Source: Clitopilus passeckerianus (Eukaryota; Basidiomycota; Agaricomycetes; Agaricales; Entolomataceae). Taken from it: 64,000 nt of DNA. The DNA lies in the NCBI GenBank assembly GCA_944990035.1, contig CALYLX010000084.1, forward strand, positions 124,001 to 188,000. Direction: 5' to 3'. This document shows, in pieces, positions 4,394-32,829 of the stretch (the stretch's first letter is position 1; each line of letters begins with the position of its first letter). A model generated the notes under the pieces. The model was not told where the DNA came from, did no database searches, and saw only the letters and a program-made list of their open reading frames with translations. Made by a program: the position numbers and the translations under genes.

Positions 4394-6230
4394 ATGAGGC
4401 ATGGGTTTTTGAAGCTAAGAAGCAATTATTTATCTACTTATACACGTATCTCTGCTCTCGTCTACCGACGGGTTGCTATATTTTTCAAAGTCTGAGACTA
4501 TAGTAATATTTGTGAACCACAAAATCTAACTGTTTTACACATTCAAGTCTTGGGGCCGGAATCAAATCAATAACTGGACCTCATAACCCAGCAAGTTACC
4601 GGTTCTACACGAAACTCTTGAAGAGTCGAACTGGTATGTGGATGCGCAACTCGAAGGCAATGGTGCCGCCATCTTCGCCTCTGATTCTTTGAAGGAAGCG
4701 CCCTTATTTCATGAGCCCCGTGAGAATTAGGTCAATGGTCCCAGTCAACGATAATGCTGCTTTCCATCTTAAACAAGGCTACGCCAGCTCACGCCCACAG
4801 TATGCTCTAGCTCTCCAAAACAAAAGAAAAAAGGCTGAGACTCGTATTTCACCTCTCTTGGAAAGTTCACTTTACTGGCTCGGCAGTTTTTCATGACACA
4901 AACAATTAGGGCCATCGCGTTGTTTGTGGGATCTACCGCCATGGGATCATTGCTTTTGGAAAGCCCTTTAGCCATGCCTGCTGAAGAGGGACTACTAGCG
5001 TATTCAAGCATACTGCGTGCTCACTCTGCAGTCTCTAGACCAAGCTCTAGACCATGTAAGTTCCCCCTTCACATGCGCCTTAGGGTTCAAGCGAAGCACC
5101 CTGTATCTGAGTAGAAGTTGAATTCTGAGGGGGGTATGATTGTTATGTTGTTCTCAGCTGTATCTTACACTCGATTAAGCAGCGAATCTCTGATTCAGGT
5201 GCTGTGAGAAGGACTATAGTGTCTCCAGCACGGGAAACTACCTGCTTTTCTCCCACCGGTTCCCCCATGTTGTCTGGAATAACATTCTTCGACTTGACAC
5301 CGAGAATTCCTGTAACCATGCCGAAGGGACTTTCCCATCTGCCCATCGCCGACCGCACGTGTTCAACCATCTGGAAAACTATCCTGATTACAGAATCCCA
5401 ACACTGCACACGAAGATCTGACTCAAAGGAGCGTCCGGGTGGATAGGAACGACTAAATGTTCAGGTCGGTTCACACCGGGTCTAGATGTGTCCCATTGTC
5501 AAGATCTTCCAGGTTATTGGCTTTCAGGTTGGTCCTGTGACTCGAGACCCTGAAGAAAACATTGGGGACGACCTTGAGATGATCATGATCCCACTACATC
5601 ATGAGCTATATTGCTCGAGCATTCAACTACTGGGATGGGGTTTCCGCATTTCACGGTGACACGCGTAACTGTGAACTCCACCCACAACAGAAGACAGAAT
5701 GCACTGGCAAGAGAGGTCCCCAGCTTATTCAACGACAGCGGTGTATAACATTGGGGGTCATAGTCTTCAAGTTGATATTCCTAGATTGGGATGGGCGATA
5801 GAATCTCCTCAGGGCATGCGTGTACCTTACGGCAAAATAGTCTTCTTCTTTGTTCCATTGCAACGAGCAAAAATGGCGGCAGGATGATGAACTTGTCGAC
5901 AGAATGTATTGCATAGTATCTTATACTCAAAGATCCGCCCAAACTTGTCAATATTCCTCCGAAGAACTCCACTGCTTTGCACGACTTATGTTTTCCTTAC
6001 CTCTTGATACTGGACTGACGTAGGGTACACGTACTATGATCTAGAGATACAATCGTTTGGTTTCATATTCAAGTGGTCTACTTACGTTGCAATGCCCTTC
6101 AATCGAGCATAGTAACGAGTCTATTTGTAGCTAAGAGGCCGGTCAAAAATACATATCCTTCCCTAGATCCTTGCTAGATCCTCAAAGAACATCCTTCGTA
6201 TGCACAGGGAGGCCAAGGCAACTCAACCAG
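4394..6230. other. intergenic, no supportable gene
   Basis: Only short unsupported frames. A 73-codon + frame at 4893-5114 starts with a hydrophobic stretch and is followed by a GTAAGT-like donor, but I could not extend it into a convincing gene. Confidence 0.45.
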
Positions 6231-7454
6231 TCATCGGGCGATTGTCGGGTGCTTTTCCACGTAATGCCTGTCAAGACGGTTTTGAGAAGCAAACAGGCGC
6301 GGGCAGTGTGAGCAGGTGAAGTCAGATTGGATCCCATGTTGACTCCATTCATGCCTCATGCGGTCATGTCTCCTCGTGAATTGCTCGCCACACTCGGGTA
6401 ATGAGCAGCGATGAACTATTCGGGAGGGAGCGGATGGCGGAGTATTGTTGGAGTTACGGGGCGTGGAATGTCGACGCTTGACATGATTGTTACGAGCATG
6501 ACCTCGCTTGAAAGTTTTCGTACAGCTGAGTTCTGAGCACGGGAATGTGCTGGTCGGCGATGAGCCCGAGGAGCTAGTTTGGTGATCTTCATCATCAGAA
6601 GCCGTACAATCGGAATGACTTGAGGGACTCGAAATGCCAGACGGAACAGCACCCTCTCGTGGTTGTTGCGTAGTCGTGTTAAAAGTGTAGTCAGAAGAGC
6701 TGAGCGTAGATGGGCCAGCAAGCGCATATTGTGAGGCTTCGAGCGGGTGCTGGGCGAGGGCATCAGATAGTTGTTGAAGGTTAGCTACTAGATAAAGAAT
6801 GTGAGCAATATATTCGTGTAATCTTATCAGGTGGACTCACTGGAGCCTTCAGGAGATGCCATCTGGGCGGGTGTGACATTCATTGGCAGGGGGCCGGTCG
6901 ACATGGTGCCGAGCAGGTCAGACATCTTCCAAGGGCTCCAGTCGTCTGTACAGACGTGAGGTTTATAAGTCTTGTGCTTCTATCTTTTGGTCTATATCTC
7001 ACCGATAGGGTGATTTGCCGCCGGCGCCGAGAAATCAAGAGGATAGGGAGGTCGCCCTATTCTGTCTGTTAGATTGAGTTGGGCTTCATCGGTGAGAAAC
7101 CGCACCCACCATTGGTTACATTAGGGTTGACGGGAGATGCAAGCACAGGCTCTTGAATGGGGACAGCACTCGGCAAGGGGAGGCCAGCCAATGAGATTTT
7201 CCATATTTCTTGGCCATTCTTCTCACAGGAGGAGATATGTATGAAGCCATACCCAAGCTGTTGCGATACTAAGACAAGACGTCAGGTCAAAAAAACTGCG
7301 AGACGAACACGTTCTCACCTGTATTCCGAACAGTGGGCGACGTGCAACATGCTTCGCCGGACTTAAGACAAAGGGAAACGTTGTCGGAGTTTGTGCGAGC
7401 GACTTGAAGCTCGAAATGCTCGAAGACACTCGTTGGAAAGGTAAATTGGACCAT
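6231..7454 (-). CDS. C2H2 zinc-finger transcription factor, five exons
   Basis: Putative DNA-binding regulator of about 338 residues, assembled by hand from exons 7319-7454, 7110-7268, 7003-7065, 6841-6945 and 6231-6784. All introns are GT-AG and 44-60 bp, and the exon lengths sum to 1017, a multiple of three. Three C2H2 fingers lie at the C-terminus: C-x4-C-x12-H-x4-H (6468-6536), C-x4-C-x8-H-x4-H starting CSLPECGEQF (6351-6407), and C-x2-C-x12-H-x4-H starting CSHCPRLF (6249-6314). The N-terminal half (MVQFTFPTSVFEHFELQVAR) is not a family I recognise. The middle is Ser/Thr/Pro-rich and acidic, as in activation regions. It sits between the flavoprotein and P450-1 genes and could be the pathway regulator. 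It could also be an unrelated neighbour. Confidence 0.85.
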
Positions 7455-10400
7455 CGTGGATGCAGATCGACAACGAATTTCGACTGAAGCTGATTATAAA
7501 GGTCTGTTGTTCACATACCACACGCAAGGAGGGTGCTTCTCCATCCCCGTAGCCAATATCATAATATACCCGGTGCATGGATTCCAAATGAACGGGGCCG
7601 TCATGTCGCTTCGTGTGATCAGCGATAGATGCTGTTCCAGGCATCCACCGGACACGTCGGTATCGAGTACTGAGTACTTGACAAGTGTAACCGAGCGATC
7701 TGCCTTTTTGGCACTGGAAGGTTGAGGGGAAATACAAATCGAAAACCCAGGCAGATGTAAGTCTATCTCTCTGTAAACTGACATATGCATCATGAGGTCT
7801 TCCTTCGGCTGTCAGTCTGCTAAATGGAACGAAGGAAGAGGCTTCTACGCGAGTCGGAATGCCACTCCCATCTTAGCTAAGCAGACTAAGTGCTTTCCTC
7901 ATTGTTAATCTACACCCGACCAATCATCCGCCGTTGACCTTAGTACTTCTACGCCAGTCTTCCGGAGAGAGGTGGTATGTCAAGAGCTTGACTCTCTAGA
8001 TAGCTATCACTGCTGGCGAGAAAACTCCACGATGCCATTTGGACTACGACATGAGAAGATGGGTGTCAATATCATATCTGATCGAGTCGATGCTTATTGC
8101 AATCTAGAAAGGACTCCAGTTACCACCCACCCTTAACAAACACCCCTGGAGCGGATTTCCTATCACGCAAGCTCGTGTTTATCAACTTCACTGATCTCAA
8201 GAACTTAACATCCACCACCTCCTTGTATCTCGGGGGCCGAAGATAGATATGATCTAGATGGTGTATTGTGGAGACCGATAAGATAAAGAGCTTAAGCGAT
8301 TGAAAGAGTCAATGTACAGGCCATCCTCATTCAACCCGGGTAGAAGGCTCAACCACCCATCCAGCCCTTATCTTCAAAACAAGCCGAGTGTCATATTGTA
8401 CGTTCTGATCCAGCAACTTTTGCCTATCGACCCCGCTGCGGGGGGAACATTTCAAAACCAGAACGGGTTATTGTTGAATGGCCCTCAAGCTGCAGCTGGC
8501 TTGGCACAATCCCAGCATGCGGATATGTGTGGCTCAACGCCTAATGAAAGAGCAGACGCGGAACACGACCTAGGACATTTTTCTGGCTGCCTGCCTCGCG
8601 TACCACTACGAGCATCGATATGATTTTCCGGATCTCCGTGCCCTCGCTGGAGGGGACCAATCAAAGCTGTCAATATCACAAGGGATAAATGAAGCTTCTT
8701 GCCTTCCTCTGAGAGGTTGACCAGCTAATGCATTTTGATGATGATGATTCTCGCAGCGCAAAACGGTATTTGAACTAGGCCGCCGCATCCACACCATGAG
8801 CTCATCAGCGAGACTGCCCGTCGGGATGCTCAGGATGCTTCCGTCTACCCTGCAGGTCCCAGGAACGGCCGAGCCAGCTCAGCATGACGCTGATCTGACG
8901 CTGATCATGAGATGTTTATATGTTCACTTGTGGTTTCTCACGCGAGGTTGCGCCCGCCAGTTGAAGTCCATAGCATGCAGCGCTCCATTAAATTGAGGCC
9001 TGTTCAGGCAGCCCAATGCACAGAGCGTGGCCCTTTGGTTTCAAACCCGTGCCATTGGTTCCATCAATGAAAAAGCCTTCGTGCGGCGTAGATCTGTAGC
9101 GTCTATACATGGCTTGGTGAGTGGTTCCCGGAGTGATGCTGCACTGGCAAGCGCTTGGCCGACCGACTCGGAGGAACCATGGCTTTCAGAGGGATTTATT
9201 GATCACTAGTCACAGTACGGAGAAGGCTGCCATCCCAACGGGATGGAGCGGGACACTGCGCTGGCTGTTATCTGGGTCCCTTGGAGTAAGTAGGTTATTA
9301 GCTAGATAAGAAGGATGAGAAATCATCCTTCGTTACACTTCTTTGAGCGTCCGAGCTGTAGATCTCACCGGACAGCTATGAAAGTGCTGCGAGCCTGACA
9401 AAAATAGATTATGCACCAGGTGCTCGTTGTCCGATCCATTCTACCGGCCGCCGAGCGTGAAAGGTCTTGTATGTTTGTCACTGAACACTGTTTCCTGATA
9501 CCAACCAAGGGGATGATCAGGTTGGACTAGCTGTCTTATGTGCCTTGTGTTCCAGTATCTTATCTCTATAAGATGCTCATGGCGACCACGACTTCCCATG
9601 AGCTCAACCTTCTCTGGAAACTACTTGTAGTATAGAATCATTGTTCCAAGACGGATGCAAATCTGCGCACATTGCACATGGATCTCCGATCCCACTTGCT
9701 TTGCTCTGTTGTTTTCCCGTATCAACTGTGCTGTCGCAAGATTCGCGAGCTCGCCCCAAGGCACCAGCGTCCAGCGTTTCACAATGATAACCATCGTGAA
9801 CTTACAGAATGTGTCTGATAGTCGCTGATAGTTGACAGGAAACAGACACACTGTAGATCCGTTGAGTATAATACTTCTTCAATGTCTCGTAACATGGTCC
9901 ATGTCGGGTCGATGAAAGAAGGTTTAGAAGCTCATTTACACGAAGTGAGAATTAAAACATCACTCAGGACACTTGCTTCGGTCGCCGTTGGTCTCTGTTA
10001 CTAGAATGAGCCAACATTTCCTATCTAGACCTTTATGCAACCTTTATGCAAAAACATCGTGGAACTAAAGCCAGATGACAGTGAGCCTGTTATTCTAATC
10101 CTTCTTTATGGAGCCAATCGAGAAAGGTTTTCGTAGCGCTTGGACTCGGAAGTAGTGCCGCGGCGGGCGGTGAGCAAGACGGACATATTGTACTTGTCTA
10201 TACTCACTGTTAGCCTTGGATACCCTGTTATTCTCTGGTAGTACGTGGCCGTGCGCGTAGCTGAACAACGTCAATGTAGCAGGTTTTCTCTTCCACAATA
10301 AGGTGATCTAATGTTCGCCGATTCGTATGTACAATTGCAGCGGCAAAGTTAGCAGTTTTCCTCGTTTCTTCTCATTTTTCTCCTTGCCCCCTTCTATGCT

Positions 10401-10593: not shown

Positions 10594-12795
10594 TCACGTA
10601 TTGGCACGAACATCGGCGAGATAATTGATATCTTCTTGACTGAGATGTCTCTCGTATGGCTTGAACGCTGACTCCGTATTCCTGAATTCATGTCGAAGGA
10701 TTGTCTCGTGGTGCTGGCTACGAGGCTTGATGACAGCCTTGTATGACTGTGGGTTAAGGACCAGGCCCTAAGAGAGACGCTCAGTACCAAACGTCATCCT
10801 CATGCTTAAAGAGCCTTACATCGTTATAAGCGTCCAGGTCGGCGTTGATCTCTTTGCCCCATCGATCAACCGGTTTTGTGATATTAAAGCCCCAAACAAT
10901 GTTCATGGCGTTTATGAACTATGACATTAACGGTGAGCAAAAAATGCTGGAGGCTTATCAAGAGGCTTACGATGGAGTTCTTTGACAAATAAACGCCAAC
11001 GCAGAAACGCTGTAGACTCGGTCAGAAGAGTTTCTTATGGTCATGCACTCTTCACTCACTCTTCCACTACCGAAGACCAGGTCGGTCATCTTTTGAAGTT
11101 CCGGGTGTTGAACGAAGCGCTCCGGGTCGAACCTTTCAGGATGCTCAAAGACCTCCTCATTGTGGAAGATACCGTCTATGCGGTGATCAGATTATAGTAT
11201 CATGAACGCAAAGCCAATACGTACATGTATTCTGGAAGACCATGGTGTTCTTCGGGATGATGTATTTGCCATACTGGAATAAGAACGTAGTTAGACGGGC
11301 GATTCGACGACTTTCTAAGAGTATTCACTTACAGGTATATCGGCCGTCGTCACATGCGGCACACCAACCGGAGCTGCAGGCCTGAACCGATGCGTCTGAG
11401 GAGGGTGAGACCGAGCATACATCAAGTGGGTTCGAGTGCTTACCTCGCATAGTACTGCCTGAAGGTAGGGCAGGGCTGCAAGGTCGTCGAGGCGGGGCAT
11501 TCTGTCGGAGCCTACCACCCTATCCATCTCTGCCTGAGCCTTCTGAAGCACGTGTGGGTGCATGAGCATAAATAGCACGAAGTTTTGGAGGAAGACAGCA
11601 GTCGTATCCGACCCAGCCTGAACAATCATGGAACCAAGGTACCTATTCGCCGTCAGAATCAGGAATCAGTCTAGGCGATGTAAATCATAGACTCACAGTA
11701 TATCTTCTTTTTCCAAACCCCACTCAGCAGCTCTGTTGATGATATCCTCCATAAAGCAGCCAGTAGCGTCCCCTCTCGCCAGCCGTGATTCGACCTCTTG
11801 AACCAAGGGTACGAAGAGCTTGTGCTGCTTTTCTCGAATGCGTTTACATAATGACTTCCATCTCGCGAACCGTTCGGGAACGAGCTTGAACGCTGGGACA
11901 AGGTCAACAGGTGGATGCCTAGCAGGCGATGTAATATCCGTCATGTCGTCGGTCATTGAGTAAAAGTCCATGAGGAATTGAGTGCTTGTCCTCGGGATAC
12001 GCTTTCCATACATGACGGACATTATGACGGAGTGAGCGTAGCGTCGGATGTGGTAGAAGAAATCCTTGGGGAGGGATCAGCTATCTACACGATGGGCAGC
12101 GAACTCCGACCCACCTCTGGCTCGGTCAAGAGATTGAAGGACAAAGCGATGGCTTCAGCTTGCTGGACGTCGAGATGAGCCTTGCATGCCTTTGGCGAGA
12201 GAATCTCGTGGGCAGCCCTACGGGTCGATCTCCACCTGTCACCTACGGAAGTCATAGTTTGAGAGACCATTTCGACAGCCGAAAGGGAGAAACGCACCAT
12301 AGCGCAGCCTGTGGGACCGTAATGAGTCTCCCCGAAGACATGATTTAGAAAATGAAACACGTACATAACGATGTCTCGAACCTCTCCGCCTTCAATCAAG
12401 CTTATGAAGTAGTTCTGCGGCCTATCTGAGGATAGAGCCGAGTTCTTCTCCAAAATTTGATGGACCGCCTCCGTTGAGTTAAGGACAACCACGTTGGAGT
12501 TTGCCAACTTCACGCTGACGATCTCTCCGAAGTTCTTCGCCCATTCCGTAAATCTACACCGAAGATGATAAGAGGCTATTTCGTAGCAGAGACGAGAGAT
12601 TTCTCACTTCAAATGGGCATGCGTCTTCGGAAAGTCGAGCAAATTACCCAACACAGGTAGGGTTGGTGGCCCAGGAGGCAAATATGAATCACGTTGACCG
12701 GTTTTGCTAGCTTTATGCACCAGCCAGACAATACCCGTGATCGCGCTCAGCGACCAGATGTCTAGGGAAGGAATAGGCAAAGAGAAGACAGCCAT
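10594..12795 (-). CDS. cytochrome P450 (P450-1), multi-exon, apparently intact
   Basis: Membrane-bound heme monooxygenase, probably of the endoplasmic reticulum. The first exon has a hydrophobic anchor followed by the proline hinge LPPGPPTLPVLGN. Later exons carry LRYGDRWRSTRRAAHE (helix C region, joined across an intron), MSVMYGKRIPR, the I-helix oxygen-binding motif QAGSDTT near 11620, and the K-helix ExxR as ETHR across an intron. PERFDPERF comes next, and then the heme loop FGSGR-RFCVG, split by an intron near 11000-11050. The Cys ligand is present, with Val where Pro is common. The C-terminus ends at TGA 10594-10596. It is a close relative of the truncated P450 at 25813-27568, sharing VELVPERFARWKSLC-like blocks and the CVG heme loop. 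It is divergent from SDR-1 and probably shares that promoter. It is a likely tailoring oxidase of the terpene scaffold. Confidence 0.88.
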
Positions 12796-15138: not shown

Positions 15139-16259
15139 TCACTTCGCTAGAACATCCTCCACAATCTTCTCACTCGTCTTCCAAAGCTCAGTCGCCAGCT
15201 CCGGATTCTTCGCATCCGCAGACTCATCCTCCTCACTCGGCACACCAAACGGCATCAAATACTTGCCCGCATACTTGCCTTTCTCCTTCCTCACCTCCTC
15301 ACTCGTTCCAGCAAACAAGCTCGTCACGGCCCCTTGCAGCGGCGTCAATGCCGAATCAAGCATCGTCAAACTTCCACCGAGCTGGTTGACAATGAACCCC
15401 TCTGAGCCTGGTGTCCTGACTCCTCCTGGATGGAGGGAGATGGAGATGATGGAGGAGCCGGAAGCATCGAATTGGCGCTGCAGTTCCTTGGCCATGAGGA
15501 GGTTAGCGAGCTTGGATAGGCCGTAGCGCTGGATGTTGGCGGGCATGCCGTTGTCTTGGCCGAAGGAGATGTTGATATCGTCGAGGGAGGTGAAGCGCAC
15601 GGAGCCTGGGATCAGGGTTTGCGTGGTGCTGGAGAGGGTGACGATGCGGACGTCGGCGTTGGGGAGGGTAGAGGTTTTTTGCAGGAGGGGAAGGAGGGTG
15701 GTGGTTAGGACGAAGGGGGCAAAATGATTTGTGAGCATGGAGACGGAGATGCCGTTGGCGTCTTTGTCGAGTGGGCGGGCGAGGCTAGAAGAAGTAAAAG
15801 GTCAGTGTATAAATATAAGTGAGTTTGACGAAGGAATACGAACAGTCCGGCATTGTTAAACAACATATCCAGCCTCTCAAGCCGTCCAGCCAGCTCCTCA
15901 GCAGCCTTCTTCAGCGCCTTGAGATCGGAGAACTCGGCGATGAACGAGCTAAGGTTCTCCTGCTTGACGTGAGGAGAGTCCTTGAGGATGGCGTCAATGG
16001 CGGTTTGAGCCTTCTCGGCGGAACGGGCATGGATGATAACGTGGGCGCCCTTCTTGGCGAGCTCGTTGGCGGTATTCCAGCCGATACCGGTGGTGACGTT
16101 TGCGCCAGTGACTAGGGCGACTTTTCCAGTTTGGTCAGGGATGAGAGCGAGGTCCCAAATCTATCAAGGGAAAGGCAGAAAGTCAGTAATGTTGGAGGAG
16201 GGTTGCAAGGAACGTACAGGGCCACGGAGATCGTCACGTTTGGGAACCTTGTCAGTCAT
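15139..16259 (-). CDS. short-chain dehydrogenase/reductase (SDR-2), retinol dehydrogenase/WWOX-like
   Basis: NADP(H)-type SDR of about 330 residues in three exons. The ATG is at 16257-16259 (MTDKVPKRDDLRGP). The second exon has LVTGANVTTGIGWNTA (cofactor loop), then HARSAEKA, where basic residues suggest NADPH, and MLFNNAG. The large third exon (15139 to about 15785) has IVTLSSTTQ with the catalytic Ser, QRYGLSKLANLL with the catalytic Tyr and Lys, and SLHPGGVRTPG. The C-terminus ends EKIVEDVLAK. All catalytic residues are present. It shares a promoter with P450-2 on the other strand. It could reduce or oxidise a carbonyl on the sesquiterpene skeleton. The substrate cannot be read from sequence. 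Confidence 0.88.
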
Positions 16260-25812: not shown

Positions 25813-27568
25813 TCATGCGTTAGTCCTCACGTTAGCGACATACTGCTTATCCTCCTCGCTGAGAAGTCTCTCGTACGGCTTAAACGTATACTCCGTGTTC
25901 TTGAACTCCTGCCTGAGGATAGCCTCATGCTGCTGGCTGCGAGGCTTGATGGTAGCTTCGAATGGTAGAGGGTATGTCACCAGACCCTAGAGGATGCGTC
26001 AGCTTCGAGTGTCCAGTTCGGTTCTTTTCTGAGACTCACGTCTTCGTAGCAGCTCACGTCGGGTTCGATCTCGTTCCCTAATGAACCTCGTCCTTTCTCA
26101 ATGTTGAAGCCCCAGATGATGTTCATCGTGTTAATGACCTGGAGGGTTTTATGTTATATCGGAAGAAAAAACATGTAAACCTTCGCGTACTAGTGAGTTT
26201 CTAGCCAGGTTTATCCCGACACAGTATCGCTAGTTCGGAGGATAATCAGAGCAATTCACGAGAAGACATATTTGGACGATAGGCAACTAACTCTTCCAGC
26301 ACCGAATGCGCTGTCCGTCAGCTTCTCCAGTTCAGGGTGCTTGATGAACCGTTCGGGATCGAAAGCTTTCGGGTTCTCGAAGATATTTTCATCGGAGAAA
26401 ATCCCCCCTGAAAATAGTGATAAGGAACCTGACGGCAATGTAAAAGCAGTTGAAGATATACATATATTTTGGATGACCATCGAACCCTTCGGGATGACAT
26501 ACCCGTCGTACTGAAACAAACGTGAGTCCTAGGGGGTTTCGCCGCTGGGAGTTTACGCACCGATACATCAGCTGTTGTCATATGCGGTACCCCAATGGGC
26601 GTCGGTGGTCGCACTCTGAGAATCTGCAAAGGAGAGCAAAAGCCAATGAAGGGTATCAGAAGGTGAAAACAACGAACCTCTGCGACCAGCGCTCGAACGT
26701 ATGGCAAGCGCTCGAAGTCGTGTAGTTGAGGCATTCGGTCCGAACCAACCACCTTGTCCATTTCTTCCTGTGCCCTTTGCATGACGTGAGGGTATGCCAT
26801 CAAGTACAAGACGAGGCTCTGCAAGAAAACGGCGGTCGTATCGGATCCAGCTTGAACGATCATATATCCCAAGTATCTGGACGCACGTCAGCACTCGAAG
26901 GAAAATCTTTGCGAAGGTTTCTTTCACTGACAGAACATCCTCCTTATCCAACCCCCAATCGGCAGCTTTCATACAGATCTCTTCCATGCGGCACCCGATC
27001 GCCTCTCCGCTTGCCACCCTTGATTCAACCTCCTGAACAAGAGGGACAAAAAGCCTCCTCTGTGCGTCCCTGATGCTGCGGCACAGAGATTTCCACCTCG
27101 CAAACCTCTCTGGTACGAGCTTGAACAGAGGTATCAGATCCACAGGGGGGTGATTCGTAACGTTGGTGATGTCGACCAAGTCATCCGTCATAGCCCAGAA
27201 GTCGACCAGAAATTGGGTCTTGCTACGTGGAAGGCGCATGCCAAACATGACGGACATGATGACTGAATGAGCGTATCGGCGTATGTGATTGTAGAATTCC
27301 TGACTACCATAGTTAGAGTGAGATTCTCAGCGTACAAAGATAACACGGGTACGTTGGGTTCGGAAAGGAAGTTGAAAGCTAGTTGGACACCTTCTGCTTG
27401 CTGGACCTCGAGATGTGACCTGCATGCCTGCGGAGAAAGGGCCTCGTGTGCAGCTTTGCGAACAGCTTTCCATCGTTCATCTAACAATATGCGAGAGAAA
27501 GTTAGAGTTGCACAGACAAAAAAAATTCTGGACATACCATATCTCATCCTCCAAAGCGAATCAAACAT
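25813..27568 (-). pseudogene. 5'-truncated cytochrome P450, paralogue of P450-1
   Basis: P450 body without its N-terminus. Reading begins near 27590 with PPPNLMFDSLWRMRYG, joined to ERWKAVRKAAHEALSP. The I-helix QAGSDTTAVF, the K-helix as EILR across an intron, PKAFDPERF, the heme loop FGAGR-RYCVG (split by an intron) and a C-terminus ending NVRTNA (stop 25813-25815) all remain. Missing are the membrane anchor, the PPGP hinge and about 110 residues that P450-1 has. An in-frame TGA lies just upstream of PPPNLM. A TATATAA-like box at about 27658-27664 could still drive a short transcript. The catalytic core is intact, so a recent duplication followed by 5' loss is likely. An alternative is that the missing exons are too diverged for me to see. 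Confidence 0.75.
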
Positions 27569-27837: not shown

Positions 27838-28531
27838 GGGAAGTTCAAAGCTATTGTCAGGTTGTTGTTGTCGCGTCGTTGTCAGGTTTCGTTGTCGCAG
27901 ACCTCTGTCGTGAGAAGTCCCGACAACAACTTTTCGTTTTCACCATCAGCGGACAACAGAACGTCTTATGGTCGGCATCATGAGTGATTGCAGCTGATGG
28001 CGGAACAAATAGCACTTGAGTAGCACAGCAGTCTGCGCAATAGTTGGGCAGATGTTTTGTTGAGGGGGTTTCTTTTTGCATAGTGTCATTCGGAATATTC
28101 AGCTGCCATTGGCCCAAGATTGGATAAGATGCGCCTAAGGGGACCTGGATGACACTGGCAGGGACTCCTCGTCAACCGCTGAGCCGCCGAGTCCGTGCTC
28201 TTCAGCACTGCTGCCTCCGTTTCCAAAGGTCGGGCCCCAACGGCATTTTCCAGGGCATGAGGCGTGAACGAAGTGATGTTTTTCAAAGACCTACAGTGGT
28301 AGAACTAGTACAACTACAAGTAAATTATCGATATCGTCCGTGATGACGCTTGAAGCGGCTGCCGTTGATTGAAGCTAACAACGAGCAGCGAAAACGGTCT
28401 TGAGAACGAAGTTCAGGGCGGGGTGTCAAAGCTGACTACCGTTTTCGTCTGTTGTCGGTGTTTTCGGTCCACGACAACGAAAGCTGACAACGACGCGACA
28501 ACGACAACCTGACAATAGCTTTGAACTTCCC
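27838..28531. mobile_element. 694-bp non-autonomous TIR element (MITE) with TA target duplication
   Basis: The ends are inverted copies: GGGAAGTTCAAAGCTATTGT at the left is mirrored at the right (ACAATAGCTTTGAACTTCCC). The similarity runs inward for about 70 bp, imperfectly, to about 27906 and 28465. TA dinucleotides flank both ends (27836-27837 and 28532-28533), as in Tc1/mariner-type insertions. The interior has no coding capacity. It lies between the truncated P450 and the fusion terpene synthase. Confidence 0.75.
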
Positions 28532-28533
28532 TA

Positions 28534-28985
28534 ATAGCGACAAGCATCCAGCGCTGTGACTGTGAATCCATCTGGATATTTGACACTGCACAAAAGCCAC
28601 CTTGGTCCTCACTGGCAGATACTATATTCCCGAACAACTTGAAGCTTGCATCTCCTCCGTAACGCATGCCTTTAACGACAGAGAAAGCACCCCAGATGGT
28701 CAAATCTTGTCACTCTCATCATGAACACCCAGTGTTGCGCTCGGTTGCCGATATTCTGTAAAGGTCTTATGTGGTGCCATTACTAGTAGCGCAACAACTG
28801 CGTTCAATGATTTATCCGAGGTGCCATTTGTATTTTGCTTGGAACGAAAGATGGAGGGTCTAAATGTCGTCCAACTGATGCCTGTCGACAATTAATAAAG
28901 CGATCCAGAATAGCCAAGGATTTAGTCCGTGGTCAGAGAGGAAAGGTGTTCTTATAGATTGCTTTCTATGTCTATGTTAATACAT
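28534..28985. other. 3' intergenic region of the fusion terpene synthase
   Basis: No gene or repeat recognised. Probably 3' UTR and downstream spacer. Confidence 0.4.
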
Positions 28986-31847
28986 TTATGATTGCGTACG
29001 AAGTAAATAGGAAGATGCATTTCGGGAGACCATTCCACCTAATCCTAGTAATCCGGTCCAATGATTATTGGCGGTCACTTCAGTTATAGTGTTAAGGATA
29101 GGGCTACCTGGCGTAGGGGTAACAGGTTGGGTGGTGAGAAGCTCGAGGCGAGAGGCGAGGTCCATGTTGTCACGGATATACTTTGTGTCTCCACGAGTCT
29201 GGAGGACGAGGAACATGCTACCAGTCCTTGCACCGCAGTCAAACAACCCAATGCGCTTCTCGAAGAGGTCATAAGAAGGCACGGAATCAATGACGGAGGC
29301 AATGCAAGAGAAGAGGGAGCCATGGCCGGTCTTTCTGACGATGGAGAGGGAAGGCGTAACGCGCTTGTCGAAATCCCTGGCAGCAACGACAGGGGTGGAA
29401 GTTTTTCCAGGAGTAGATAGGACTGTCTTCTCATACTGTCAGGATTCATTAGTCAATTCGAGGTCCATATTATCAGTGATCGATGCCTACCAAGTTCCTG
29501 TGCGCCGCTCGTGCGACGTCGTCATTTGCGGCATTATAGATCAGGTAGTCGATACCGAGGAAAGTGGTAGCGGCATCAGTCACAAATGCATGACCCAGAA
29601 CGCTCTGGGAGACCTTTTCGTAGCGCTTCCACTGGTAGGAGTCAAAGGCAGCCTGTAGTGCTCCACTGAATGCTTTCTCAGGGTCAGTGACGCCAGTCGA
29701 GACGAAGTAATTTCCTCGAACGGCTGCACAGAGTAGACACAATTAGTTAATAGCCAATTGAAGGAATAATTAATACTTACGTTCGAGAACGAGAGGAGCG
29801 TCAGGGCCAATAAGGACTGCGGTACCACCTTGGTAGTCACCGACGTAGAGCAATGCATAGCGACCATTCCAGGTCGAGCTCTCAATCCAGCTGGAAGCGC
29901 TCATGAAAGCACCCATGGCATCGTTATGAGCGTCAGGGACGACGGTGCCTTCAAGGTCGACGTTACCGTAGCCGCGGAAGGTGTTGATGAGCCAGTCAGC
30001 CACGGTTTTGGCTGAGCGAGCAGAAGAGTCGACGGCAACATCAAGACGGCCGACCTTGCTGTGCGGGATACTAAAGCGATTGAGCATAGAAGAGACGGCT
30101 AGAACGGTTGTCAGAATTATAGCTCATGTAAGTTAAGAAAGCCAAAGACTCACTCATCCAGGCAATGGACTTGGCAGATTCGAGAACATCATCCGAAGAC
30201 TTGTGAGTAATGCCGGTCTGAAGAAGCCCCGTTAGAGTGGTCTTGATTCGGAGTGTATAAGGACTTACCGATCCAGGAATGTAGGGCTCAATTGCTATGA
30301 TACCAACATGCTCAGGACGAGGAGGCTTGGGGAGCTCAATGAGGTTGGATACAACGATTTGCGAGCTGTTCTTGGCCTTGTTGGAGCTACTCTCAATGGC
30401 TTCAATATCAAGAGCGAGATCGACCTCAGGCTCCTTGTCGACGTTGAAAATAACATCGCGAAGACGAGTTTCTTCGCTGTCGTCGGGAATTTCGTCTTCA
30501 GGAGTGGGCTCGGGGAAGAATTCGAGTTTGGGGAAGGGAACACCTCCTGGGAGGTCGCCAATGTTGTAACGTCCGCTCTGCAGAGCCATTTAACATCGGA
30601 AGGTTGTAGTCAAGCTGCGTCACGTACCTCTTGAGACCAAGCCATGTTTCCACCCATGCAGTAGGGGAGACATGCAATCCAGCGACGAACTTCGGGGTCC
30701 TTACCGAGCTCGGGGTGGTTGAGAACAGCCATCCCGGCGGGAATATAGTCGGCTTCCTTCTGTCGGATCTTGTCCTCGACAACTTTCTTGGCCTCTTCAA
30801 ACGTCAGACCTTCATGATCTTGCAGGATGCGGAGAATGTTGGTGTCGTCTGACTGAGTGAGCTTCTCTTTGGCGTAGGAGAAGTAGTCGTTGGTGAGGCC
30901 TACGTGGTCTAAGAAGGGGTATCAGCCGACGAATGGGAAGTCAAGCGAAAGGATACGTACCTGAGATAATGCCCTCAGCTTCACGCATGAGAGGATGGTT
31001 GACTTGCTCGTCAGTCAGGTTGATATCGAGCGTATATCGGAAGTATGCTAAAGAAAGGATCAGCAGCCGCTTATTTCAGAATACGATGTCTTCTCACAGT
31101 TGGCGAAGTACTGGGAAAAATCAACGAGTAGTTCAAATACGAGGCTGAAGCGATGCTTACCATGGCAATGTTCACGCGACGAACAGCAAGATACTGGTCG
31201 AGATTCTGAAACGGCTCGTGGATGTTGGAATCCCACCATTCGTGCGTACACTTTGTTAGTTGATCGAAAGTACGAGGATGAGAGGTAGCTTTGATAGCGC
31301 GGAAAACGATATCGTGACAGAGCTCGGCTCTATCTTCTGGGTGAAGAGGCTAAAGTTCGCGATCAGAGGGGGATAAGTCTAGGGCCGTATCTGAGAGAAC
31401 GTACTCCTGTGCCAGTAGCAGCTTTCTTGAAGCCCGGGATACGATCGAGCATTCGACCGCTGTCGATATAGTCATCGGCGAGGAAGAAGATGCTGGCCAT
31501 GATACCTCCCCAGACCATTCTGTCGAAGTCAGCGGCGGGTGCACCTAGCGGAAAAAAATGTTCAGACAATGCGACCTGGGATAGGGACAACAACACTTAC
31601 ACCATGTGCTGAAGCCAGCCAGGTTTCCGAAGGGAATACGCTGACGTTTCTTCTCACTGGTGAATGGCCAGTACTTCATCATCCATTCGTCGTTGAGGCG
31701 GTACAGTTCTGTAGGTTGGGTGAGTGGTTGAAGCAAGATTCAATCGGTCGTCATACCTTTCCATCGGGGATGGTTTCGAGCCGGAGGATAAGGCTGACCA
31801 GGAAGAGGTGGGAAAGGTGCAATTTTTCCAAGCTTGACTGTAGACAT
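28986..31847 (-). CDS. sesquiterpene synthase fused to a degenerate HMG-CoA synthase domain
   Basis: Core enzyme of the cluster, in at least ten exons, starting MSTVKLGKIAPFPPLPG at 31847. The N-terminal third is a class I terpene synthase. It has FLADDYIDS (DDxxD, 31462-31476) and NDYFSYAKE (NSE motif, 30865-30891), both for Mg-diphosphate binding. It ends in GGNMAWSQESGRYN as in basidiomycete enzymes. An acidic linker of about 90 residues follows. The C-terminal part matches HMG-CoA synthase: GRLDV, WIESSTWNGRYALLYVGD, AVLIGPDAPLVLER and KRIGLFDCGARTGS. The active-site Cys region reads PDAHNDAMGAF (29905-29938) without Cys, the His region reads YLIYNAAN, and the Glu position reads AVDSSARS. 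So acetoacetyl-CoA condensation is unlikely. From memory, a synthase of this architecture makes hirsutene in Stereum hirsutum. The product here is inferred, not shown. Farnesyl diphosphate is the expected substrate. Confidence 0.88.
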
Positions 31848-32829
31848 TGTGTTCTCGATGTAGTTGGCTGTGACTTGACGAAGCAGCTCCAGTCAGTTTA
31901 TAAAACAGAATCCTTCCGCAAAACGAAGATAACGCACGATTACAGCTGAAGCCTGAAAATGCGGACACATCGCGGAGGTCCTTGAAGTCAAATCAGATCA
32001 GGGGACGAACCGACCGCAAATCGTGCGGGAAACATCAGGTCCGCAAAAATCGAACCGAGCCAAAGCAGAATCTCCATGCTCAGAATGGCGACTCCTTTTA
32101 GAGTCAGATAATCCAATAGAACCAGTTTGTTACTGTACCCGAAGGCTGGGATTTCTTTAGGTCCGGTATCCAGGTCTGAGAGTGGCACGTTCTAGGAAGA
32201 AATGATAGATTTTCGGTACAATCGCCCCGCATCGTCCCAACCGCTTGAGAGGGGTGAACCTGGCGAGTCCTCAGTGTCCACGTTGTTCACTAGCCAACGA
32301 AACTAGTACTGTCCGGGACTCACAGGCAGGGTCAGATGTTCACTTCTCAGTTGCAGTAGGTCAAGGTGTCGCGCGGAGTAACTCAAGAGCAGTAGAACAG
32401 AGGCGTACCACCTCCGCTCCTGGCAAGTTTGTTCAAGGCTTGCCTTACGGTCTGTTGAACGAACCGCCGGCGGCGAAAACTTTCGTCCTGTTTGGCCCAA
32501 GGAGAAACCCTTGATAAACATGGCCAAACGGATCTGTTGCGGTGCTACTGACAGACGCGCAAGATGGGAAACGGGTTTACCACATCGCCACATACGCCCT
32601 CTAGGGTTCGTGAAGCGATAGGGAGAATGATTCCTTCAATAAGTTCCAGTTGTTGTCCAGTCGATACCCAAGAATGTCATTTCGAGACCCTTCAGTCAAC
32701 TTCGCGAGCACAACGGCCGCCGGACATCAAGTGGGAGTGGGCAATCCCCACCAGACCGCGAGCGGCTGTGGCTGTGTTACCTAAGCGACGCGACACATAT
32801 CCCGGCCGATTGAAGTGACCCAGCTAATT
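31848..32829. promoter_or_regulatory. upstream region of the fusion terpene synthase
   Basis: About 980 bp with no supportable gene. It includes CGCCGGCG near 32465 and CGGCCG at 32714-32719. It is the last segment with cluster-like composition before the AT-rich repeat zone. Confidence 0.4.
32714..32719. promoter_or_regulatory. CGGCCG palindrome upstream of the fusion terpene synthase
   Basis: Hexamer 867 bp upstream of the ATG, so far for a core promoter site. Weak evidence. Confidence 0.18.

Follow-up and report, generated by a model that had tools for sequence, protein, structure and literature searches.

A 64,000-nucleotide stretch of the Clitopilus passeckerianus genome (contig CALYLX010000084.1, positions 124,001 to 188,000; referred to here as the window) carries on its minus strand, at 28986..31847, a gene of 12 exons (gene A) whose 760-residue protein joins a sesquiterpene synthase (STS) to a C-terminal domain of the 3-hydroxy-3-methylglutaryl coenzyme A (HMG-CoA) synthase (HMGS) family. 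The HMGS domain has lost the catalytic Cys and His, and we propose that it is probably a pseudo-HMGS kept as a structural module that supports the synthase half. STS-HMGS fusions as such are already known; what is new, as far as the literature searched shows, is that a dead HMGS domain is common to several of them.

The exon model, checked by script, has 11 introns of 48 to 57 nt, GT-AG throughout, and no internal stop. Pfam profiles matched the protein above their curated cut-offs at residues 84-262 (PF19086, 83.2 bits; cut-off 23.7), 416-516 (PF01154, 58.9 bits) and 611-710 (PF08540, 32.2 bits), placing an STS and an HMGS domain within a single open reading frame. The synthase half comprises residues 1-303, encoded by exons 1-7 at 30628..31847 (exons 1-4, 31847-31757, 31708-31601, 31544-31405 and 31349-31161; exons 5-7, 31110-31098, 31047-30961 and 30908-30628). 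A reading of this DNA made from its letters alone (the sequence-only reading) had described the motifs DDYID and NDYFSYAKE as intact, and both are present in the spliced protein, in exons 3 and 7, respectively. These aspartate-rich and NSE motifs, together with the PF19086 match, identify the N-terminal half as a class I sesquiterpene synthase. By analogy with the Stereum and Steccherinum fusions discussed below, gene A probably encodes a hirsutene-type cyclase. Exon 8 (30269..30577), an open exon of 309 nt, covers the end of the synthase, continues through an acidic linker and runs into the HMGS domain. The pseudo-HMGS core (residues 385-702; 29163..30334) extends from the end of exon 8 through exons 9-11 (30217-30154, 30098-29781 and 29723-29491) to the start of exon 12, and is followed by a C-terminal tail at 28986..29162.

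The domain was aligned with four canonical HMGS sequences, namely, the organism's own and three others, and with the domains of other fusions, as the sequence-only reading had suggested. In gene A the catalytic Cys is replaced by His, the His by Asn and the Glu by Asp. The strings that had been placed at these positions (HNDAMGAF and VDSSAR in exon 10 and IYNAAN in exon 11) were all found in the spliced protein. The claim that Cys, His and Glu were lost therefore holds for the first two, whereas the Glu is merely changed to Asp, and a second copy of the gene (copy B) keeps Glu at the aligned position. Likewise, the YTIGLGQ and GNARPTGG blocks had correctly been called absent, but that list of losses was incomplete: the YDFYKP block and the Asn of GNMY are deleted, the GSG turn has Ala in place of its Ser and the conserved canonical C-terminal end is also gone. 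Among the 174 columns that are invariant in the four canonical sequences, gene A keeps 63 and is gapped in 37. The domain thus lacks the Cys and His expected of an HMG-CoA synthase, as well as substrate-site segments of the kind expected of a competent HMGS such as the one stated for the Stereum fusion. On strong sequence grounds, it is predicted to be catalytically inactive.

An error in the gene model could in principle mimic such losses, if other splicing restored the catalytic residues or if the two halves were separate genes. However, 11 catalytic-motif patterns gave no match in any of the six frames of 28501-32500, introns included, and a rescue of the catalytic residues by a corrected model was rejected, since no frame of the locus carries them. 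In favor of an artefact, intron 8 (30218..30268; 51 nt, phase 0) is stop-free and its length is a multiple of three, so that its retention would insert 17 residues and preserve the frame. The junction between synthase and HMGS domain is spanned by the single exon 8, which speaks against two separate genes, and the two-gene model was rejected on this ground. Copy B, moreover, shares the exon borders, and in four other fungi database proteins extend across both halves. We consider a gene-model artefact very improbable.

The origin of the domain can be traced in part from its introns. Besides its two Pfam matches, the domain matched HMGS of the Protein Data Bank (PDB) with a four-domain profile (2.2e-39), and the canonical eukaryotic enzymes (PDB 2wya, 2p8u, 2f82 and 7cqt) belong to the same family but retain the Cys, His, substrate-site segments and C-terminal end that gene A has lost. 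Introns 8, 9 (30099-30153) and 10 (29724-29780) of the fusion correspond in position and phase to introns 1, 2 and 3 of the organism's own intact HMGS gene (three of four shared); introns 9 and 10 match by alignment column, and intron 8, where the alignment is gapped, by the residues that precede it (YIPGS versus YFPRR). The fourth canonical intron did not match intron 11 of the fusion. The shared positions and phases suggest an origin of the fused domain in an intron-bearing HMGS gene like the organism's own, and the source would thus be neither a processed copy nor bacterial. The organism's intact HMGS gene is present in two copies that are 96% identical over 3.7 kb, which we read as alleles of two nuclei.

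Copy B lies on the same contig, 36 kb from gene A (C84:117033-119916), and is complete, encoding 767 residues with the same exon borders and GT-AG introns and, like gene A, no stop. A DNA search of the assembly listed only copies A and B, with no further fusion copy among the best candidates scored, and Pfam HMGS searches of the assembly, scored in the same way, returned only two near-identical intact HMGS genes besides A and B. Between A and B, the synthase half shows 12 synonymous and no nonsynonymous differences over 306 codons, giving an identical protein. Exon 8 has 1 mismatch in 309 sites. Introns 1-7 differ at 8 of 361 sites and introns 8-11 at 19 of 218. Synonymous divergence is 0.05 in the synthase half, 0 over the 67 sites of the linker and 0.16 in the HMGS core, a step that looks like the mark of a gene-conversion tract over the synthase half. 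The core itself (318 codons) shows 37 synonymous and 30 nonsynonymous differences, corresponding to a ratio of nonsynonymous to synonymous rates (dN/dS) of 0.28 (0.31 at kappa 4), and each half of the core was separately significantly below neutral. The sequence-only reading had argued that the domain is under selection and proposed this calculation, the outcome of which agrees with it. The C-terminal tail, with a dN/dS of about 1.8 over 41 codons, was not below neutral, and small indels leave the ends of copies A and B in different frames; this tail is apparently unconstrained. In the control comparison, the two intact HMGS copies showed 34 synonymous differences over 467 codons and no nonsynonymous ones. 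Judged from this one pair of fusion copies, the dead core is constrained, yet far less so than a working HMGS.

Relatives were sought with the full-length protein, the synthase half and a domain profile. The full-length and domain-profile searches scored 7998 and 7995 candidates, respectively, those sharing most words with the query; since only these best candidates were scored, absence from either list proves little. The full-length search found 6 proteins among them. Matches run through both halves in Hebeloma cylindrosporum (62%), Somion occarium (55%), Cerrena zonata (55%) and Tetrapyrgos nigripes (44%), whose linkers are also similar to that of gene A, while database models of Hermanssonia and Phlebia end before the HMGS domain, perhaps because of annotation. 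The synthase-half search found 32 proteins, including a Collybia nuda partial protein that extends into the HMGS part and a synthase-only model of Stereum hirsutum (P0012; 277 residues, 72% identical to the synthase half of gene A). The 7 matches of the domain-profile search comprised 4 degenerate-type pieces and 3 canonical HMGS.

Ten fusion-type rows were compared, namely, copies A and B, five other species and three metagenomic pieces (P0037, trimmed to its matching part, P0038 and P0040) whose attachment to a synthase is not established. The domain alignment excluded P0043, a partial protein that contains a foreign Pfam domain; P0004 and P0005, which end before the HMGS domain, did not count toward the Cys and His columns. 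The Cys column lies outside P0037 and P0038, and the His column outside the partial Collybia protein. None of the eight rows covering the Cys column has Cys (the residues are H, Q, S, Q, N, K, T and N), and none of the nine covering the His column has His. The least worn domain is that of Tetrapyrgos, which keeps 69 of the 174 invariant columns and the Asn of GNMY. The predicted catalytic loss therefore recurs in relatives and is not peculiar to gene A. Since the relatives share the dead domain, its retention is probably due to a structural role and not to catalysis. With motif-free frames at the locus, a core dN/dS of about 0.28 and degenerate domains in relatives, the pseudoenzyme interpretation first offered in the sequence-only reading is well supported by sequence, with selection gauged from one pair of copies.

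Several observations nevertheless weigh against the structural role, and some of them favor its main rival, in which a once-functional HMGS, made redundant by the cell's own enzyme, is decaying neutrally or nearly so and persists because its truncation would harm the upstream synthase or has yet to occur. Distant fusions share 80-88% identity in the synthase half but only 27-42% in the HMGS half, reflecting fast evolution of the dead domain; even in the close pair Somion and Cerrena the values are 96% and 69%. Many blocks are deleted in most relatives, the Cerrena protein has no Pfam HMGS match at all, and PF08540 falls below its cut-off in Hebeloma and Somion. Between copies A and B, the exons of the HMGS half (87 of 1059 sites) diverge about as much as the introns there (19 of 218), and the selection estimate comes from this single copy pair, with a conversion-like tract over its synthase half. 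The unconstrained tail and the Hermanssonia and Phlebia models that lack the domain, if not an effect of annotation, also fit erosion. Two further points bear on the structural role. The available structure model, with a predicted HMGS fold, is that of the Hebeloma relative; its pLDDT averages 65.9 and is low in the linker and in residues 531-640, too low for domain-domain contacts to be read. In addition, the Stereum fusion reportedly makes HMG-CoA, according to PMC12667498, whereas gene A is without the catalytic residues. Against erosion stand the dN/dS of the core, significantly lower than the neutral expectation in each of its halves, the stop-free state of both copies and a segment, VPSYxLFEKR, whose P and F are common to 6 of 6 fusion-type rows compared and to 0 of 4 canonical rows. 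The S between them also occurs in 1 of the 4 canonical rows. This P and F may serve as a lead for a fusion-specific contact. On balance, we regard erosion as unlikely, though it deserves to be taken seriously.

The domain might instead have changed its chemistry, binding a CoA ester or a prenyl diphosphate as a regulatory sensor or a new enzyme. The HMGS fold predicted for the Hebeloma relative would be compatible with this, as would two features invariant in 6 of 6 fusion-type rows compared, a GP-AP segment and, close to the end, a D-T pair. However, YDFYKP, the GNARPTGG loop and, except in Tetrapyrgos, the Asn of GNMY are deleted or replaced, and the eight residues at the Cys position vary, so that there is no conserved replacement. 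Changed chemistry accordingly seems improbable, more so than erosion, and retention as a structural module is the explanation we prefer.

As a structural module, the fused domain would be unable to make HMG-CoA and would be kept folded for the benefit of the synthase half. Canonical HMGS is a homodimer, and the most likely role of the dead domain would be to pair two copies of the protein, or else to stabilize or position the synthase. The sequence-only reading had likewise put forward stability, oligomerisation or tethering to mevalonate-pathway enzymes as candidate roles. HMG-CoA would be supplied by the cell's ordinary HMGS, which is intact elsewhere in the genome.

In a tree of the synthase halves (21 rows, with 8 of 18 inner branches starred), gene A fell in no well-supported group, and the Tetrapyrgos fusion grouped with the Stereum synthase model with support of 89/85, or 95/90 with Pluteus added. 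Yeast complementation by the Stereum fusion was reportedly obtained by Flynn and Schmidt-Dannert in 2018. Two hirsutene-making STS-HMGS fusions are described in PMC9501842. One of them, the hirsutene synthase HS-HMGS of Stereum hirsutum, has the architecture of gene A, an STS with a C-terminal HMGS; the sequence-only reading had stated that such a fusion makes hirsutene in this species, in agreement with two reviews (PMC9501842 and PMC7409058). HS-HMGS is said, second-hand, to form HMG-CoA (PMC12667498), suggesting that the Stereum fusion may differ from gene A; P0012 is not shown to be HS-HMGS, and no HMGS half from Stereum turned up. The other, the chimeric hirsutene synthase A8411 of Steccherinum ochraceum (Wang et al. 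2022), is listed as a fusion enzyme that gave hirsutene on expression in Aspergillus oryzae (PMC9501842); no Steccherinum protein was among the matches listed in the three protein searches. Because the Tetrapyrgos fusion, itself without Cys and His, groups with Stereum, yet the Stereum fusion reportedly makes HMG-CoA (PMC12667498), catalytic loss may have occurred more than once. In the literature searched we found no mention of a dead HMGS domain in STS-HMGS fusions, although Flynn 2018 and Wang 2022 may discuss it.

The neighborhood of gene A was scanned with Pfam over 40 of the 85 open frames listed for the window. Matches above the cut-offs, all on the minus strand, were cytochrome P450 exons at 11318-12603, a short-chain dehydrogenase exon at 15708-16160 and a second, marginal P450 match at 26571-27326. 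Ten of the open frames listed upstream gave no Pfam match. The Stereum HS-HMGS cluster is described as containing P450s and oxidases (PMC8705726). Window positions 10324-32510 align with C84:95862-120580, so that the cluster is present twice on the contig, as a mosaic of one direct block at 99.7%, three inverted blocks at 93-99% and the fusion genes, direct, at 92%. Immediately before this duplicated stretch, synteny of 92-96% between C84:81699-95016 and C142:464347-477831, which runs from the edge of the sequence compared, comes to a stop, and window positions 6200-8700 have no close second copy in the assembly. The end of synteny at C84:95016, the lack of a further fusion copy and the uniqueness of 6200-8700 suggest that one of the two nuclei may lack the cluster, an incomplete or collapsed assembly being the alternative. 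In the right part of the window, 41275-64000, mobile elements are represented by several fragments of reverse transcriptase and RNase H.

Plant class I terpene synthases carry a vestigial beta domain, likewise a dead ancestral domain on a live class I enzyme. If our interpretation is correct, the fusion would be a fungal counterpart of this arrangement, although the domain is unrelated and lies at the opposite end of the protein and in another kingdom. Why a terpene synthase would be joined to an enzyme from early in the mevalonate pathway is hard to see, as their reactions do not follow directly on one another. Several such uncommon fusions have been reported without apparent functional advantage over the independent domains, as stated in PMC12667498. 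If the second enzyme is dead yet selected in many species, HMG-CoA supply cannot explain why the fusion is kept there. Annotation should then not count the C-terminal half as an HMGS, and the engineering of hirsutane producers should treat it as a possible structural part. We suggest tentatively, as a broader proposal that falls a little short of an even chance, that dead HMGS domains turned structural occur throughout a lineage of mushroom hirsutene-type synthases, possibly through repeated catalytic loss.
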